From Bacteroidales bacterium UBA3824 (GTDB lineage Bacteria > Bacteroidota > Bacteroidia > Bacteroidales > UBA3824): 26,625 nt of DNA. The stretch lies in assembly GCA_002393195.1 (NCBI GenBank), contig DGIK01000221.1, forward strand, positions 1 through 26,625, given 5' to 3'. A program made the position numbers and the translations under genes. Positions 2,754 through 7,766 of the stretch are shown here, one piece after another. Numbering within the stretch: position 1 is the first letter of the stretch; every line of letters starts with the position of its first letter. The notes under the pieces are model-generated. The model was not told the origin of the DNA and made no database searches. It worked only from the letters and a program-made list of their open reading frames with translations.

Positions 2754-2949
2754 TGTCCTAAACAAAGAATATGTTTTAACCGGCTGGATTGATGTAGAGT
2801 CTGCACATTTTTTTGCCGAGTTGGAGTCTTTGCGTGATGCGGCGGATTATAATGTTTTTTTTCAAGCCACCGAAGAAGAAATTATGGAATACCGCCCAAT
2901 GGTTGATACTTTTATCGCGGACATTAAGAATTTGATAGGAGAGATTTGA
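2743..2949 (+). pseudogene. HEPN-domain protein, C-terminal remnant
   Basis: The 68-residue frame (NKEYVLTGWIDVESAHFFAELESLRDAADYNVFFQATEEEI...FIADIKNLI) matches the C-terminal half of HEPN proteins, where the order is xxFVKTG, then LRxxADY, then a final helix. A full HEPN partner of an MNT protein is normally about 130 residues. The N-terminal helices with the catalytic R-x(4-6)-H motif are missing. The frame begins at ATG 2743 inside the end of the MNT gene, overlapping it by 11 bases in another frame. This suggests that a deletion removed the 5' half of the HEPN gene. It is probably non-toxic if translated at all. Confidence 0.7.
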
Positions 2950-2976
2950 TTTAGTGTGATTATTTACGAAATGCAG

Positions 2977-2984
2977 TATATTTG
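2977..2984 (+). promoter_or_regulatory. Possible -7 promoter box for the folded RNA
   Basis: TATATTTG matches TAnnTTTG exactly. No TTTG is found 19-21 bases upstream, so this is a one-box match. It would start a transcript near 2991 that covers the folded region at 3067-3230 and, if read through, the SUMF1 gene at 3354. No other TAnnTTTG is seen on this strand between 3231 and 3354. Confidence 0.45.
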
Positions 2985-3066
2985 AAAAATACTTGCTGAA
3001 AAATTTGGCGGGAATCAAAATTTGTATTTTCTTTGCCGTTGAAAATATTGACAAAAACGAAAGAGT

Positions 3067-3230
3067 GTTTGCTTGAGCCGATTAACAGAAAAAGACCAAT
3101 AAAAAACAGAAAACATCGGCTTAGGCAAATTCTCACATTCTCATAAAGGGTGTGGGCTTCCTTTATAGTGTTTTCAGGCTTTGGTCGGCCTTCTGTTAAC
3201 TATTGGGTAGTCTGCGTCCCTTCTTTTTTT
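3067..3230 (+). ncRNA. Structured RNA candidate with a pseudoknot/kissing-loop fold
   Basis: This lies in a 404-base gap (2950-3353) without a gene. Stem A: 3067-3082 pairs with 3115-3130 in 16 unbroken pairs, three of them G-U, so the fold belongs to the plus-strand RNA. Stem B: 3083-3090 (TAACAGAA) pairs with 3191-3198 and starts in the loop of A, making a pseudoknot. GACCAA (3094-3099), also in the loop of A, is complementary to TTGGTC (3181-3186). That hexamer is exactly the six-base loop of a small hairpin (3176-3180 with 3187-3191). A further hairpin pairs 3143-3149 (ATAAAGG) with 3160-3166. A short hairpin (3199-3202 with 3208-3211) precedes a T-rich run at 3221-3230 that may end the RNA. 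It is not tmRNA, RNase P or 6S as far as I can tell. It could be a free small RNA or a leader of the genes downstream. Confidence 0.6.
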
Positions 3231-3273
3231 GCCACATTGTAGAAAACATTTTCGAATCTGACTTGAAAAACAA

Positions 3274-3303
3274 AGTTGACGAGGTAATAAATGACATGTC
3301 AAC
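3274..3303 (+). other. Small inverted repeat upstream of the zinc-ribbon SUMF1 gene
   Basis: GTTGAC (starting at about 3275) and GTCAAC (ending at about 3303) can pair across a 17-base loop, and the palindrome TGACATGTCA lies within the right half. It is 50 bases before the start codon in the leader. It may be an operator or just a weak hairpin. Confidence 0.25.
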
Positions 3304-3353
3304 GAGACAGAAAAATCAAAAAAGAATTAATAACAATAAAAAAACAGGAAATC

Positions 3354-4235
3354 ATGGGATTATTCAAACCAAGTTGTCCTTACTGTGGTTCGGATGACGT
3401 AACACGGACTAACATTGCAGAAAAGGTTGGCTCAATGATAGTAGGCAGTGCGGCCAGAAGTTTGCTGAGTATGATAACAGGTATTTCCACGAGACCGATG
3501 GGACGACTCCCAGGTGAAAAAGAGCCAACACATTATAAATGTGATTGCTGTCACCGCACTTGGAAGAGTGGTGAAGAAGATTTCATCCGTTCTGGAGGAA
3601 AAACTCGAGATGAAGAGTTGCTACGGCAAGAGTTACAACAGCAAGCGGAGATAAGATCAAAATACAAGTTGGAAGATGTATTTCCAGAAATGATTAAAGT
3701 CGAAGGGAATCCGAATATTTCTAGTTTTTACATCGGAAAATATCCCGTAACAAGGGCACAATGGGCAGCCGTAATGGGCATTGATCCAGAAGGAAGAGAA
3801 CGACAACCTGTGGTATGTGTTTCTTGGCATTATTGCCAATCTTTCATTGAGAAACTTCATTCTATGTCAGGACGTAAATTTCGTTTGCCCAAGGAAGCGG
3901 AATGGGAGTTTGCAGCGCATGGAGGCAATATGACCCACAATTATATGTATAGTGGGAGCAATAACATTGCCGAAGTAGCGTGGTATGACTGCAATTCAGG
4001 CGGAACACCACATCCTGTCGGTCAGAAGAAACCTAATGAACTCGGCATCTATGATATGTCGGGTAATGTTTGGGAATGGTGTGAAGATTTGTATTCAACC
4101 TCAGAGAACCGCCGTATTATACGTGGAGGCTCTTGGTACAACGTCGAATCCCTCTGTGCCATCCACACACGTCGCAGCAACTTTCCAGACAGCGTTCCCG
4201 ACTATTACGGCTTTCGTCTTGCTATGGATGCATAA
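3354..4235 (+). CDS. Zinc-ribbon protein with SUMF1/FGE-sulfatase domain
   Basis: This 293-residue protein has no signal peptide, so it should be cytoplasmic. Residues 8-11 (CPYC) and 63-66 (CDCC) form a zinc ribbon, split by a small-residue stretch (VGSMIVGSAARSLLSMITG). A charged helical linker (EELLRQELQQQAEIRSKY) leads to a FGE-sulfatase domain from about residue 115: FYIGKYPVTRAQW, LPKEAEWEFAAHGG, NELGIYDMSGNVWEWC, RIIRGGSW, YYGFRLA. After GGSW the motif is YNVESLC, which keeps the second of the two FGE cysteine positions but not the first. FGE catalysis is therefore unlikely. The start at 3354 drops 21 poorly supported residues and puts the ribbon at the N-terminus. The gene pairs with the MBL gene 73 bases downstream. 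Function unknown; a role in a conflict system is inference. Confidence 0.8.
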   Translation: MGLFKPSCPYCGSDDVTRTNIAEKVGSMIVGSAARSLLSMITGISTRPMGRLPGEKEPTHYKCDCCHRTWKSGEEDFIRSGGKTRDEELLRQELQQQAEIRSKYKLEDVFPEMIKVEGNPNISSFYIGKYPVTRAQWAAVMGIDPEGRERQPVVCVSWHYCQSFIEKLHSMSGRKFRLPKEAEWEFAAHGGNMTHNYMYSGSNNIAEVAWYDCNSGGTPHPVGQKKPNELGIYDMSGNVWEWCEDLYSTSENRRIIRGGSWYNVESLCAIHTRRSNFPDSVPDYYGFRLAMDA

Positions 4236-4308: not shown

Positions 4309-5544
4309 ATGGAACTAACAAGAACAATTCACCCAATTGGACAAGGCGGTTTCTATACCGAAACCTTGAAGGATGGCGACGATGAAATCAACGTGGTCTA
4401 TGACTGTGGTGGTTTTAATAGACTTGACAACTCGCCATTGATGAACAATTATATAGTCCAAAATTTAGAAAAGGACAAAGAAATTGATATCGTATTTATT
4501 TCCCATCTTGATTGGGATCATATTAATGGGTTAGAATGCCTATTGGCTCATTGTAATGTCAAATATCTGTTTCTTCCTCAGTTGACAGAAGATGAAAAAT
4601 ATGCTATCATATTGTATAATATGTACGTATTAGGAATTAGTTTTACACGTTATTTCACTTTTTACAAATTTCTTTTTAAAATACTTATAGGAGTGATAAG
4701 TAGTGATACGACAAAAATTGTTTGGGTTAGCAAAAGCACAAATATCTCCATTATTGGTATTAGAAATGACATAGACATCAAAAATATAAATTTAAAAAAC
4801 GGTGAGTACCTTAAAAAAGGAACAAGGATTCATTTCCATCATAAATGGTTTTATATTCCGTACAATCCGCCTGCCCCACAAAACACAGGCAAAAATATAA
4901 AAGACGAATTCAATAAATTGTTTCCAAATGTTGATTTTAAGGATTTACCGAATAAAATGAAAGGAAATCTGCAACAATGTAGAGGAATATACAAAAGTTG
5001 TTTTGTGGATCAGAATTCTTGTTCTATGACTTTGTTTTCAGGAAGTATAGAAACAAAGATGTATTATATAGGAATTGAATGTTTCAAAAATAACGACAAT
5101 GCCAATTGTTTATATATGGGAGACTTCGTAAAAGACTACATAGATAACCTTATATGGTTTTATAGAAAATATTGGAAAGTTATTGCAACAATACAAGTTC
5201 CTCATCATGGTTCTAACGACAACAATTCCTACAAATTATATGAATATGCGTATCGTGGTTTTATATCGGTAGGAAGTACAAATAAAGATCATCCCGGAAA
5301 CACAACAATGATTACCATGACAAATCATAGATGCCAATCATTAATTGTTACTGAAGAACCAAGTACAAAGAAAATATTTCATTATACGGATGTGGACTTT
5401 TTTGATTCAAATCAAGAAATTATGAATAGTAAGAAAAACAAGAAAGTCAACAAAAACGGCAAGTCATCTAAAACAGAAGAACAAACAGACGAATTAGTAA
5501 GTGAGCAAAAGCCAGAACAAGAACAGACGACAGAGATTAAATAA
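4309..5544 (+). CDS. ComEC/Rec2-type metallo-beta-lactamase-fold protein
   Basis: This 411-residue protein has the ComEC-like form of the MBL metal site: SHLDWDH at residues 65-71 (HxDxDH), MGDF near 270 and VPHHGSND near 297. Such domains hydrolyse phosphodiesters or related bonds in DNA or nucleotides. In ComEC the domain is fused to a DNA channel, but here it stands alone. Relative to a bare domain there is an insertion with a hydrophobic, aromatic stretch (about residues 105-135, YVLGISFTRYFTFYKFLFKILIGVI) that might touch a membrane or partner. The last 40 residues are a K/E/Q-rich, probably disordered tail. The gene is much more AT-rich than the ribosomal genes, which suggests transfer. 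It has no visible promoter of its own and follows the zinc-ribbon SUMF1 gene. The substrate is unknown. Confidence 0.8.
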   Translation: MELTRTIHPIGQGGFYTETLKDGDDEINVVYDCGGFNRLDNSPLMNNYIVQNLEKDKEIDIVFISHLDWDHINGLECLLAHCNVKYLFLPQLTEDEKYAIILYNMYVLGISFTRYFTFYKFLFKILIGVISSDTTKIVWVSKSTNISIIGIRNDIDIKNINLKNGEYLKKGTRIHFHHKWFYIPYNPPAPQNTGKNIKDEFNKLFPNVDFKDLPNKMKGNLQQCRGIYKSCFVDQNSCSMTLFSGSIETKMYYIGIECFKNNDNANCLYMGDFVKDYIDNLIWFYRKYWKVIATIQVPHHGSNDNNSYKLYEYAYRGFISVGSTNKDHPGNTTMITMTNHRCQSLIVTEEPSTKKIFHYTDVDFFDSNQEIMNSKKNKKVNKNGKSSKTEEQTDELVSEQKPEQEQTTEIK

Positions 5545-5620: not shown

Positions 5621-5651
5621 TTTGCACTACCACAGAAATAACTTATATTTG
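5621..5651 (+). promoter_or_regulatory. Promoter of small gene, copy 1
   Basis: TTTG (5621-5624) and TATATTTG (5644-5651) are 19 bases apart. Only the last bases of the -7 box belong to the duplicated sequence, so the upstream half differs from that of copy 2. Confidence 0.75.
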
Positions 5652-5684
5652 CAGTGTAACAAAATCCACAAAAAAACAAAGATT

Positions 5685-5912
5685 ATGGAAACAAAAACCA
5701 TCAGTGTAGCGGTCAAGATACCCAAATCGTATCGGGTAGGATTGTTGCAGCAACAACTCACTGCATACGCGCAGGTATTGATTGCGCAATCGAAACCGAA
5801 AAAACGCCGTTACCGACATGAAGCATTACGTGGCATTTTCAAGACAGATGCAACCGAAGAAGAACTCATCGAGGATTATCTTCATGAGAAGTACAACATT
5901 AACAATGAATAG
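5685..5912 (+). CDS. Small antitoxin-like protein, intact copy
   Basis: The 75-residue protein starts METKTISVAVKIPKSYRVG and continues with a helical, basic middle (SKPKKRRYRHEALRGIF) and an acidic end (DATEEELIEDYLHEKYNINNE). A short N-terminal strand followed by helices and an acidic tail is typical of small type II antitoxins, and I recall similar unnamed proteins in Bacteroidetes. The assignment is by shape and context only. No full toxin gene follows: the overlapping ATG at 5904 opens a frame broken after seven codons. ATG 5685 is chosen because the promoter box ends at 5651, which excludes the earlier ATG at 5622. A frameshifted twin is at 7308-7534. Confidence 0.65.
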   Translation: METKTISVAVKIPKSYRVGLLQQQLTAYAQVLIAQSKPKKRRYRHEALRGIFKTDATEEELIEDYLHEKYNINNE

Positions 5913-5986: not shown

Positions 5987-6103
5987 CCGTGGGTTCACAC
6001 CCACGGCTAAAATATGTCACCCCTACGGGGTTAGGCTACCGATTACAATCTGAAACCAAGTTCTGAAAGGACGAAATATAATAGACGGGGGTGTGAACCC
6101 CCG
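5987..6103 (+). repeat. REP/BIME-like hairpin cluster in repeat copy 1
   Basis: Three hairpins lie in a row. CCGTGGGT (5987-5994) pairs with 5999-6006 around TCAC. ACCCC (6019-6023) pairs with GGGGT (6027-6031). CGGGGGT (6086-6092) pairs with ACCCCCG (6097-6103) around GTGA. The cores of the outer two, GGGTTCACACCC (5991-6002) and GGGTGTGAACCC (6089-6100), are exact reverse complements, i.e. two REP units facing each other. Copy 2 has lost the first hairpin. A further G-U-rich hairpin follows at about 6132-6157. The region 5913-6165 has no intact gene. Confidence 0.65.
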
Positions 6104-6165
6104 GCACAATGCGTATTAACGGCACAAATTTTCCGTCGGTCGTTCAACGGTTGGCGGAGAGGGTA

Positions 6166-7197
6166 TTAATTCAGTACCAACGTCGGATTAAGCATCAACG
6201 TGTCAATGATTTGATGATAAACATTGCTTTCGGCAATCAGGGTAATTGACATTACCTTGTTGCCGGCATCTTTTGAGGACGCTCCGCAATGATAGATTTT
6301 TTCGGCTGATGTTTTGTAGTCGATAATGATATAGCGATCGTGAAAAATGCCGCAAGTCTTTGTAAAAGTGATATTTGTATTTGGATATTGCTTCGTGAAA
6401 TCGTCGTAGTCGCTTTGCGATAGACCTTTGCCCATATTGTCGCTGAAAATAGTTATCGGAATGTTTTGGGCAACATCTTTGAGCAATACGAGAGTTTTGA
6501 CACCGATGTAATTGTCAATTACAAAAATTGATTTCTTTGCCGATGCGTAAATATTAGAGTATGCAATATTTGCGTCAAACGATTCTCCATTGAGGATAAG
6601 ATATTCGCGGCGAGTCTGCGGGTCGGTGAAATCTTGGATGAATTTCGACAAATCCGCCTTTGTAACCATATTCTGTTTGATTTCGGCAATGTCTTCGGTG
6701 TTTTTTGCGGTCTGCAAAGAAAGTTGCAACAATTCTCGTCCGCCGACAAGACTTCTGTTTTCGCTAATAAAATCCTTCATTTCCTTGAATGTTCTTATCA
6801 ACGCCTTGCTCTGCCGTACCGCCAAGTCACCTTTGAGAACGGTCATAAGCATATAAATTCCCTGCTCTGTGAATACGTATGGAAGTTTACGTGTGCCGCC
6901 CCATCTTGATGTCAAATTTTTTGATATCAAGATTCCATCATTTTGATTATCATCTGATAATGAGTTAATTGCATTTAATTTTGAGGTCAAAAATTTTGAC
7001 CTCAAAATTTCTTCATACTCTTCTTTGGTCAGTTGAAACCTGAAATCATCGTCAAATTTTTGTATATTATTCTTTACTTGTTGGTTGAATGACCTTGTTT
7101 CGTAGCCGTAAATTTCGGCAAGGTCGGAGTCAATCATAACTTTCAACCCTCTAACTGTAAAAATCAGGTTCTTTATGTGGTCTGTATTTTCAATCAT
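6166..7197 (-). CDS. ORF6N-domain protein with PLD-like C-terminal domain
   Basis: This 343-residue protein begins with an ORF6N domain: IKNLIFTVRGLKVMIDSDLAEIYGYETRSFNQQVKNN, FDDDFRFQLTKEEYEE and, further on, LPYVFTEQGIYMLMTVLKGDLAVRQSKALIRTF. ORF6N domains occur in phage-type antirepressors and bind DNA. The C-terminal part from about residue 230 (SIFVIDNYIG...FHDRYIIID...YHCGASSKDAG) resembles phospholipase-D-like domains. Its H286-x-R288 in place of the usual HxK, with D293, suggests altered or lost catalysis. ATG 7197 is preferred: a longer frame from 7302 would run back through its own promoter and into the neighbouring repeat. The gene lies exactly between two direct repeats and could be lost by recombination between them. 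Probably of phage or mobile origin. Confidence 0.8.
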   Translation of the reverse strand: MIENTDHIKNLIFTVRGLKVMIDSDLAEIYGYETRSFNQQVKNNIQKFDDDFRFQLTKEEYEEILRSKFLTSKLNAINSLSDDNQNDGILISKNLTSRWGGTRKLPYVFTEQGIYMLMTVLKGDLAVRQSKALIRTFKEMKDFISENRSLVGGRELLQLSLQTAKNTEDIAEIKQNMVTKADLSKFIQDFTDPQTRREYLILNGESFDANIAYSNIYASAKKSIFVIDNYIGVKTLVLLKDVAQNIPITIFSDNMGKGLSQSDYDDFTKQYPNTNITFTKTCGIFHDRYIIIDYKTSAEKIYHCGASSKDAGNKVMSITLIAESNVYHQIIDTLMLNPTLVLN

Positions 7198-7227
7198 ATT
7201 TGATGTGCTTGCTAATTTTTCACGCCG

Positions 7228-7260
7228 TAAAGATACAAAATAATTTGTATTGATACCAAA
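7228..7260 (-). promoter_or_regulatory. Likely promoter of the ORF6N gene
   Basis: On the minus strand TATCTTTA (7235-7228) is one base off TAnnTTTG, with TTTG (7260-7257) 21 bases upstream. It overlaps the opposite-facing promoter at 7244-7274, so the two may interfere. Confidence 0.45.
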
Positions 7261-7274
7261 ATTACCTATTTTTG
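7244..7274 (+). promoter_or_regulatory. Promoter of small gene, copy 2
   Basis: TTTG (7244-7247) and TATTTTTG (7267-7274) are 19 bases apart. Only the 3' end of the -7 box is shared with copy 1, yet the whole promoter pattern is kept. Confidence 0.7.
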
Positions 7275-7766
7275 CAGTGTAACAAAATCCACAAAAAAAC
7301 AAAGATTATGGAAACAAAAACCATCAGTGTAGCGGTCAAGATACCAAAATCGTATCGGGTAGGATTGTTGCAGCAACAACTCACTGCATACGCGCAGGTA
7401 TTGATTGCGCAATCGAAACCGAAAAAACGCCGTTACCGACACGAAGCATTGCGGGCATTTTTAAGACAGATGCAACAGAAGAAGAACTCATTGAGGATTA
7501 TCTTCAAGAGAAGTACAACATAAACAATGAATAGTTATGAAAAAATACAAATTATGTCGCCGACATAGTTCGTGAATAAGTATTTATAGAAAACTGCAAC
7601 TTATCTTACCTATTTTATTTCACCCCTACGGGGTTTGGCTACCGAATACAATCTGAAACTAAGTCCTGAAAGGACGAAATATCATAGCCGGGGGTGTGAA
7701 CCACCGGCACAATGCGTATTAATGGCACAAATTTTCCGTCGGTCGTTCAACGGTTGGCGGAGAGGG
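7271..7766 (+). repeat. Direct repeat, copy 2 (496 bases) on the right of the ORF6N gene
   Basis: Near-identical to 5648-6163, with scattered substitutions, a one-base deletion in the small gene and loss of the first REP hairpin. The end (GTTCAACGG...GGAGAGGGG) is followed here by a T-run (7771-7775 and the bases before it), so this copy may end in a working terminator. Together with its flanks it fills 7535-7790, where no other gene is seen. Confidence 0.9.
7308..7534 (+). pseudogene. Small antitoxin-like gene, frameshifted copy
   Basis: The first 48 codons match the intact copy at 5685-5912. A single base is missing between 7453 and 7454 (GCG-GGC here against CGTGGC in copy 1). After that the frame runs into RAFLRQMQQKK and stops at 7521-7523, while the old frame continues in register to TAG 7532-7534 with codons for ATEEELIEDYLQEKYNINNE. 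The promoter is intact, so a 71-residue altered protein could still be made, but without its acidic C-terminal helix. Confidence 0.85.

Follow-up and report, generated by a model that had tools for sequence, protein, structure and literature searches.

A multicopy structured RNA of Bacteroidota, probably a transcription attenuator, upstream of exchangeable genes

The window, which is the whole stretch of DNA analysed here, comprises 26,625 nucleotides of a contig from Bacteroidales bacterium UBA3824 (DGIK01000221.1, positions 1 to 26,625). Within it, a structured RNA on the forward strand lies upstream of two genes on the same strand. The parts of this locus, in window coordinates, are as follows.

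3004..3035, + strand: probable Bacteroidota promoter, with TTTG at 3004-3007 (-33 type) and TTTCTTTG at 3028-3035 (-7 type)
3049..3234, + strand: structured leader RNA, core of about 185 nt; match to covariance model R1 at 3050-3232 (174 bits), match to model R2 at 151 bits
3049..3057, + strand: 5' strand of P1, partner 3226-3234; closes the RNA ends and pairs with the U-run
3063..3082, + strand: 5' strand of P2; the 3' strand is 3115..3134
3082..3090, + strand: 5' strand of helix a, partner a' at 3191..3199
3094..3099, + strand: 5' strand of helix b, partner b' at 3181-3186 in the loop of P5
3109..3116, + strand: 5' strand of helix c, partner c' at 3168-3175
3132..3141, + strand: 5' strand of P3, partner 3147-3156; alternative to P4 and proposed antiterminator, with weak two-sided change
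3146..3162, + strand: 5' strand of lower P4, partner 3205-3222; proposed terminator stem
3165..3169, + strand: 5' strand of upper P4, partner 3199-3203
3176..3191, + strand: hairpin P5 (3176-3180/3187-3191), presenting b' in its loop
3221..3230, + strand: U-run near the RNA 3' end
3354..4235, + strand: downstream gene 1, FGE-sulfatase (SUMF1) domain (Pfam PF03781, E=6e-35), with an N-terminal CxxC motif by eye; an earlier in-frame ATG lies at 3291 (ORF 3291-4235)
4309..5544, + strand: downstream gene 2, metallo-beta-lactamase fold protein (Pfam PF00753, E=1e-6)

Along the RNA the order is P1 5', P2 5', a, b, c, P2 3', P3, P4 5', c', P5 with b' in its loop, a', P4 3', the U-run and P1 3'. Helices a, b and c are long-range and join the P2 loop to the P4 loop, while P3 and lower P4 compete for one common strand, GGUGUGGGC. 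By eye, b lies inside a small hairpin in many copies. The original prediction for this gap had described a 16-bp stem at 3067-3082/3115-3130, pairing of its loop segments TAACAGAA (3083-3090) and GACCAA (3094-3099) with 3191-3198 and 3181-3186, a hairpin at 3176-3180/3187-3191 and a T-run at 3221-3230. All of these are found in the sequence, the T-run with one C at 3223. The third crossing helix, c (GAAAACA at 3109-3115 with TGTTTTC at 3169-3175), had been missed. A 7-bp hairpin at 3143-3149/3160-3166 is likewise present in the window but, by eye, is not kept in other copies, in which the hairpin kept at its place corresponds to 3132-3141/3147-3156. The view that these pairings are too good for chance is borne out by folding of 2991-3230, which gives -67.4 kcal/mol on the + strand (z = -3.79, equalled by 0 of 200 shuffles) and a z of -0.04 on the - strand. 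Chance pairing in an AT-rich gap has a negligible probability, and is ruled out by this z-score together with the homologues, own-partner tests, kept order and two-sided changes described below. Upstream of the promoter (2403-2949) lies a nucleotidyltransferase gene, and behind it a partner ORF that is shortened. About 190 nt are missing at 2752-2755 relative to L054 (genome G017) and L256 (genome G002), and this second gene is thus without a start.

Homologues of the RNA are numerous among Bacteroidota from the gut and elsewhere. At the DNA level, six other places in the window's own genome resemble it, one of which (L006) is the promoter stretch only. Covariance model R1, built from six copies, finds eight copies in this genome, window included, the weakest at 49 bits. 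Among 59 genomes, 18 have an R1 match: 14 of the 18 genomes of the genus, own included, with 1 to 9 copies each, and 4 of the 41 genomes of other families, one of them weakly. The genus genomes G001, G003, G006 and G010 gave no R1 match. Model R2, built from 53 copies, matches 118 of 393 Bacteroidales genomes (about 30%) at E <= 1e-4, in 72 of 206 genera and often in several copies; these copy numbers are floors because only six candidates were scored per genome. Of 395 genomes drawn across the phylum, 18 match at E <= 1e-6, the window's own among them, and other orders and classes are represented.

Copies are also present on viral contigs. Fourteen IMG/VR contigs match a pattern derived for the other families, each of them with an R2 score at E <= 0.01; this pattern demands b and b', so these contigs provide no test of b. 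The genus pattern matched none of the IMG/VR viral contigs, and no plasmid or deposited phage matched one copy used as a nucleotide query. A pattern scan of named genomes returned 32 stretches, 18 of them on 'Bacteroidales bacterium' MAGs, which come, where the title tells, from the rumen, omasum or abomasum of yak, goat and sheep. The remainder consist of one stretch from Rikenellaceae, one from Paludibacteraceae and 12 outside Bacteroidota. On rescoring with R2, the Bacteroidales contig rescored (L106) and the Rikenellaceae stretch match, and the Paludibacteraceae stretch (L128) and the 12 stretches outside Bacteroidota do not.

For the comparisons that follow, two opposite-strand ghosts among the first 59 loci, a minus-strand ghost (L149) and the duplicates L142, L145 and L152 were dropped. 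The 53-copy R2 set leaves out L053 (a near copy of L052), L088 (3' half replaced) and the weak L098 and L099. Nine other-family rows of alignment A4 are counted with the other-family set, which otherwise consists of the best-scoring R2 matches listed (60 regions) and a few loci, and which therefore leans to good matches. The weak match L098 (29-31 bits) lies directly upstream of a 944-aa protein. DrmD is matched once in the PADLOC tally, which is not itemised per protein.

The helices are maintained by compensatory change. For P1, P2, P4 and P5 in the 53-copy model-fitted alignment, two-sided change is seen in 45 of 51 pairs (27.5 in shuffles) and pairing in 94.4% of cells (81.1% in shuffles). 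The covariation score of 0.458 compares with 0.206 for shuffled and 0.07-0.09 for slid versions. P3, a, b and c lie outside the covariance model, and for these we set the pairing of each copy with its own partner strand against pairing with strands from the other copies, separately in 44 genus and 77 other-family copies. In each set, and for each of the four helices, none of 5000 permutations reaches the own-partner sum. The own partner beats every other for a in 24/44 genus and 53/77 other-family copies and for c in 26/44 and 44/77. The corresponding counts are 7/44 and 19/77 for b and 2/44 and 5/77 for P3, helices so alike in many copies that the own partner cannot win often. Across the 121 copies there are 115 distinct strand pairs for a, 116 for c and 65 for b. 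The order a, b, c is correct in 118 of them, with two incomplete and one differently ordered. No special selection is needed to explain the private sequences of a and c: a strand that takes part in two alternative helices is constrained twice over and stays similar between copies, whereas a and c can drift in pairs. P3 has 93.5% paired cells, against 92.2% with shuffled partners and 20-69% in slid versions, and two-sided change in only one of seven pairs; its support thus comes mainly from own-versus-cross pairing and from beating the slid versions. With the exception of the 7-bp hairpin, the predicted pairings are therefore kept in many homologues, with wholesale compensatory change.

A U-run is present throughout: in all 121 copies the last 26 nt include an 8-nt stretch with 6 or more U, against a fraction of 0.11-0.15 of shuffles. 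One copy, L077, has a broken b/b' contact, ACUACCAC facing UUUGGUC, which is intact in the near-identical L076; L077 may be a natural b mutant or a recombinant.

The original prediction had taken the G-U pairs to mean that the plus-strand RNA is the folded form. In counts of G-U against A-C, this holds for the modelled helices (405 to 33 in alignment A4 and 458 to 97 in A7, with a model-fitted alignment that itself favours G-U), for P3 (174 to 14), for c (40 to 5) and for the interior of a, but b (18 to 14) says little about the strand. The raw count for helix a is 21 to 60, and 54 of the 60 A-C cases precede the last pair at the helix edge; for positions flanked on each side by at least two Watson-Crick pairs, the count becomes 11 to 1. 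The excess of G-U in most helices indicates that the + strand RNA is the form under selection.

Two sets of helices can be drawn for this RNA, one with P2 and P4 and one in which a, b, c and P3 nest in one another as a rod. Energies were computed by nested folding with the rival set penalised, pseudoknots not included. In the genus they are -62.8 for P2+P4, -56.5 for the rod and -37.7 for in-segment shuffles, and the P2+P4 terminator fold is lower in 38 of 44 copies. In other families they are -50.7, -64.5 and about -33, and the rod is lower in 76 of 77 copies. Both folds are far below the shuffles, which suggests that both are kept, with opposite balance in the genus and the other families. 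One reading of these data is that the folds are mutually exclusive and form no pseudoknot, P2+P4 being off and the rod on, with the loop-loop contact as an intermediate. It agrees with the nesting of a, b, c and P3, with the stability of both folds and with the rod's advantage outside the genus. It sits less well with the presence of b' in a hairpin loop (and by eye of b in many copies) and with the way P2, a, P4 and c mostly abut. In other families the commonest linkers are 0/0 both between P2 and a/c (33/76) and between P4 and c'/a' (32/76), and in the genus the commonest are zero or a 1-2 nt overlap, values for which the shortest linker was taken and to which no shuffled control applies. 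Such spacing is what a nearly linker-free four-way junction would show, and one may form in three dimensions. Strand exchange between the arms is also unsupported. For such branch migration, the pairings of P2-5' with P4-3' and of P2-3' with P4-5' do not exceed shuffles in the genus (mean z 0.38 and 0.49) and are weak in other families (-0.28 and -0.88). We regard exclusive folding as a serious but doubtful possibility. It is a variant of the attenuator proposed below and shares part of its probability.

The -33 and -7 boxes at 3004-3035 are putative and named after the Bacteroidota promoter consensus. In the 60 nt searched upstream, 37 of 46 genus copies have their best -7 box beginning 17-23 nt ahead of the RNA. 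Perfect boxes are present in 18 of the 46, against 5% of shuffles. In the window, the box at this kept position matches at 7 of 8 letters, as do half of the shuffles, so position is the argument here. A -7 box had been proposed further upstream, at 2977-2984 (TATATTTG); it is perfect but does not stand where relatives keep theirs.

Downstream, 132 of 151 copies are followed within 5-130 nt by the start of an ORF on their own strand: 42/44 in the genus, 65/75 in other families (two of the 77 copies, with too little downstream sequence, are left out), 14/14 in IMG/VR and 11/18 at phylum level. The RNA-to-gene distance has medians of 39-49 nt. As controls, an upstream minus-strand ORF reading away is found in 6/44, 6/75, 1/13 and 5/18 copies, respectively, and random same-strand positions give 0.29-0.38. 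In three of the IMG/VR contigs (L225, L223 and L226), the leader starts 67-79 nt after a small lipoprotein-like gene, for which a phage role is a guess by eye.

The original prediction had left the choice between a new small RNA and a control leader. The gene within 5-130 nt in 132/151 copies favours the control leader, the free small RNA less so. An independent small RNA acting in trans, with its own promoter and terminator, an incidental gene behind it and variable loops that pair with other RNAs, would account for the conserved promoter position, the U-run in 121/121 copies, the ends closed by P1 and the several paralogues per genome. The close same-strand gene speaks against it, as does the finding that loop segments match their own partner better than those of other copies, which implies no common target. 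We hold an RNA of this kind to be rather improbable.

The genes behind the leader are diverse. Signal-like N-termini, by a crude hydrophobicity rule, are found in 64% of 95 first genes longer than 150 aa, against 23% of 553 other mechanical ORFs at the same loci, and by the crude rule also in 45 of 65 first genes in other families. Pfam was searched with two sets of proteins. The first has 89 proteins, encoded by the first to third genes behind the first 57 copies (genus and a few other-family), and the 25 families listed include caspase (9), dynamin (5), MMR_HSR1 (5), Sel1 (3), PP-binding (3) and TIR (1). PADLOC on these 89 proteins finds LeoA four times and caspase four times. The second has 89 first genes from other families, IMG/VR and the phylum, and among the 25 families listed are the Por secretion tail (6), HsdR N-terminus (3), ResIII (3), BACON (2) and SprB (2). 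A regulon devoted to defence was considered and rejected: the caspase, dynamin and LeoA tallies have no control set, and 45/65 other-family first genes are signal-like. A recurring stretch of three genes, encoding by eye a lipoprotein-like and two secreted proteins, follows the leader at L013, L056, L072 and L076. Its proteins are perhaps caspase-fold, and the Peptidase_C14 tally of nine is not itemised.

No common function of the downstream genes and no sensed ligand is apparent. A ligand-binding riboswitch or protein-bound leader with one fixed signal for all copies would be compatible with an attenuator and overlaps with it in probability. It could explain why UUUGGCGAU occurs in the P4 loop of 27/121 copies and recurs across families, and the diverse genes could form one regulon. 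Among the listed Pfam families, however, none exceeds 9 of 89 downstream proteins in the first set or 6 of 89 in the second, a and c are hypervariable, and no invariant pocket was identified, and we consider a single fixed signal unlikely.

Comparison of flanks points to exchange of the genes behind the leader. We compared genus copies by BLAST (at least 120 nt, E <= 1e-10) over 80-900 nt before the RNA and 20-820 nt downstream. Ten pairs are alike upstream, and downstream three are also alike and seven are unrelated. Four of the seven have 228-820 nt at 94-98% upstream (window/L054, L008/L057, L075/L082 and L076/L077), and the other three are short or weak (125-261 nt, 76-91%). Between the window and L054, from another genome, the upstream flanks are 94-95% alike and the RNAs about 67-80%, and different genes follow. 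The sequences of L076 and L077 are for the most part 93-100% alike through the RNA end and unrelated beyond it. In genome G002 (L256), a flank 94% alike to the window's runs up to window position 3006, beyond which BLAST finds no further homology, and by eye it continues straight into a gene like the L054 cargo with no leader between; the R1 matches of G002 sit on other contigs. These pairs and the leaderless L256 suggest a fixed place where leader and cargo turn over and where the leader can also be lacking. A further pair, L055 and L088 (G004 and G007), is similar in both flanks and differs in the RNA 3' half and about 300 nt after it, L088 having lost the 3' half of the RNA.

Such turnover might instead be read as the mark of a DNA recombination site whose folded single strand swaps the gene behind it, in the manner of integron attC. 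Downstream sequence is indeed common to only three of the ten pairs with similar upstream flanks, and the L076/L077 similarity breaks at the RNA end. The G-U excess in most helices, however, marks the + strand RNA as the selected form, similarity ends at differing places in different pairs, and homologous recombination between copies would suffice. Sites of the attC type fold as single strands and occur in cassette arrays with an integron integrase, and here there is usually one copy of the RNA per fetched locus. A recombination site is, in our judgement, very improbable.

The explanation that we favour, and consider probable, is that the leader is a cis-acting transcription attenuator before exchangeable genes, and that it probably decides whether the genes behind it are read. 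RNA polymerase would start just upstream, at about 3041-3049, and make about 185 nt. The RNA would fold into arms P2 and P4, whose big loops would be joined by a, c and the hairpin-loop contact b. These contacts may hold the halves of P4 together and help it to form, a direction of effect that is our interpretation. P4 with the U-run would then stop transcription and leave a short RNA with its ends closed by P1. If instead P3 took the GGUGUGGGC strand and persisted, P4 would be blocked and the polymerase would read into the gene, typically about 40 nt downstream. We infer transcription, termination, a switch with P3 as antiterminator, the favouring of P4 by a, b and c, and the existence of a signal. 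The comparison of copies itself provides the family, P1, P2, P4, P5, a, b, c, the strand common to P3 and P4, the U-run, the placement ahead of genes and the differing genes behind similar flanks. The attenuator agrees with the terminator-like stem, the U-run behind it and the same-strand gene further downstream (132/151). The proposed antiterminator P3 has a strand common to P4 and own-over-cross pairing, but weak two-sided change. Against the attenuator, a gene lies within 130 nt in only 11/18 phylum-level copies, and the fold energies, computed without pseudoknots, disagree between the genus and other families.

More tentatively, and with somewhat less than even confidence, we propose a Bacteroidota-wide RNA class. 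Each member would be a portable attenuator with a private 'key', placed before exchangeable host and phage cargo genes and closing on itself through two four-way junctions (P2-a-P4-c and b hairpin-a-P5-c) and a kissing contact. If so, newly acquired genes would arrive under ready-made control, and an attenuator would add to Bacteroidota an extensive, so far undescribed level of control over secreted, surface and defence-like genes. Three long-range helices, with a and c hypervariable yet complementary, whose spacing suits a near linker-free four-way junction, make the RNA a clean structural target in which each copy carries its own natural compensatory changes. The loci with similar flanks and different cargo, and the one leaderless relative, make function directly testable.

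The RNA family is apparently undescribed: it would work like an attenuator leader and fits no described RNA family tested. The original prediction could not match it to tmRNA, 6S, RNase P or a riboswitch, and Infernal searches agree. Rfam 15 at gathering score matched no family for the window and 20 loci, nor did E-value mode for window 2900-3400, 5 loci and 18 loci, where the element in window 2900-3400 has chance-level matches only, far below gathering. A known Rfam RNA is thus rejected for every copy scanned. No description of the family was found in the main texts of the open-licence literature searched.

Intrinsic-terminator attenuators and riboswitch platforms have a 5' leader with a terminator stem and U-run, a competing hairpin on a common strand and a nearby downstream gene. 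The present RNA is like them in its position as a 5' leader, its terminator-like stem with U-run, its strand-sharing competing hairpin and a gene a few tens of nt downstream, and differs in the three long-range helices that join its two arms. Purine-type riboswitch aptamers likewise have a closing helix P1 and two arms with loops in contact. Here, in contrast, the loops are about 30 nt, with about 20 mostly variable pairs in three blocks, and no conserved ligand pocket was identified. In type III toxin-antitoxin systems, the RNA consists of a short pseudoknot repeated in tandem ahead of the toxin gene. Tandem repeats of this RNA were not found: 75 sources gave 78 matches, three sources having two.

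Among RNAs reported from Bacteroidota, the paralogous small RNAs FopS and GibS of Bacteroides are similarly multicopy. FopS is about 65-70 nt, with a canonical promoter, a single-stranded 5' seed (R1) and a terminator hairpin, and acts in trans on susC-type mRNAs (PMC11697453). The RNA described here, at about 185 nt with P1, P2, P4 and P5, is set apart from FopS in a comparison of size and anatomy. Of the computationally found motifs named in Weinberg 2010, Flavo-1, Bacteroidales-1, Bacteroides-1 and Bacteroid-trp match no copy scanned (PMC2864571). Bacteroides-2 and GUCCY-hairpin are listed there without an Rfam number, and our Rfam comparison covers Rfam-numbered motifs only (PMC2864571). 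A Flavobacterium transcriptome is reported to contain 64 structured 5' regions, some of them without an Rfam match, and overlap of these with the present family is possible (PMC9723704).

Elsewhere in the window, downstream of the two genes behind the leader, lie three Acido-Lenti-1 RNAs (RF01687), at 5987-6032 (+), 6059-6104 (-) and 7662-7707 (-). They surround a gene with an ORF6N domain (ORF 6166-7302), which itself stands between two small ORFs (5622-5912 and 7272-7523) encoding near-identical proteins. This looks like a duplicated or mobile segment.
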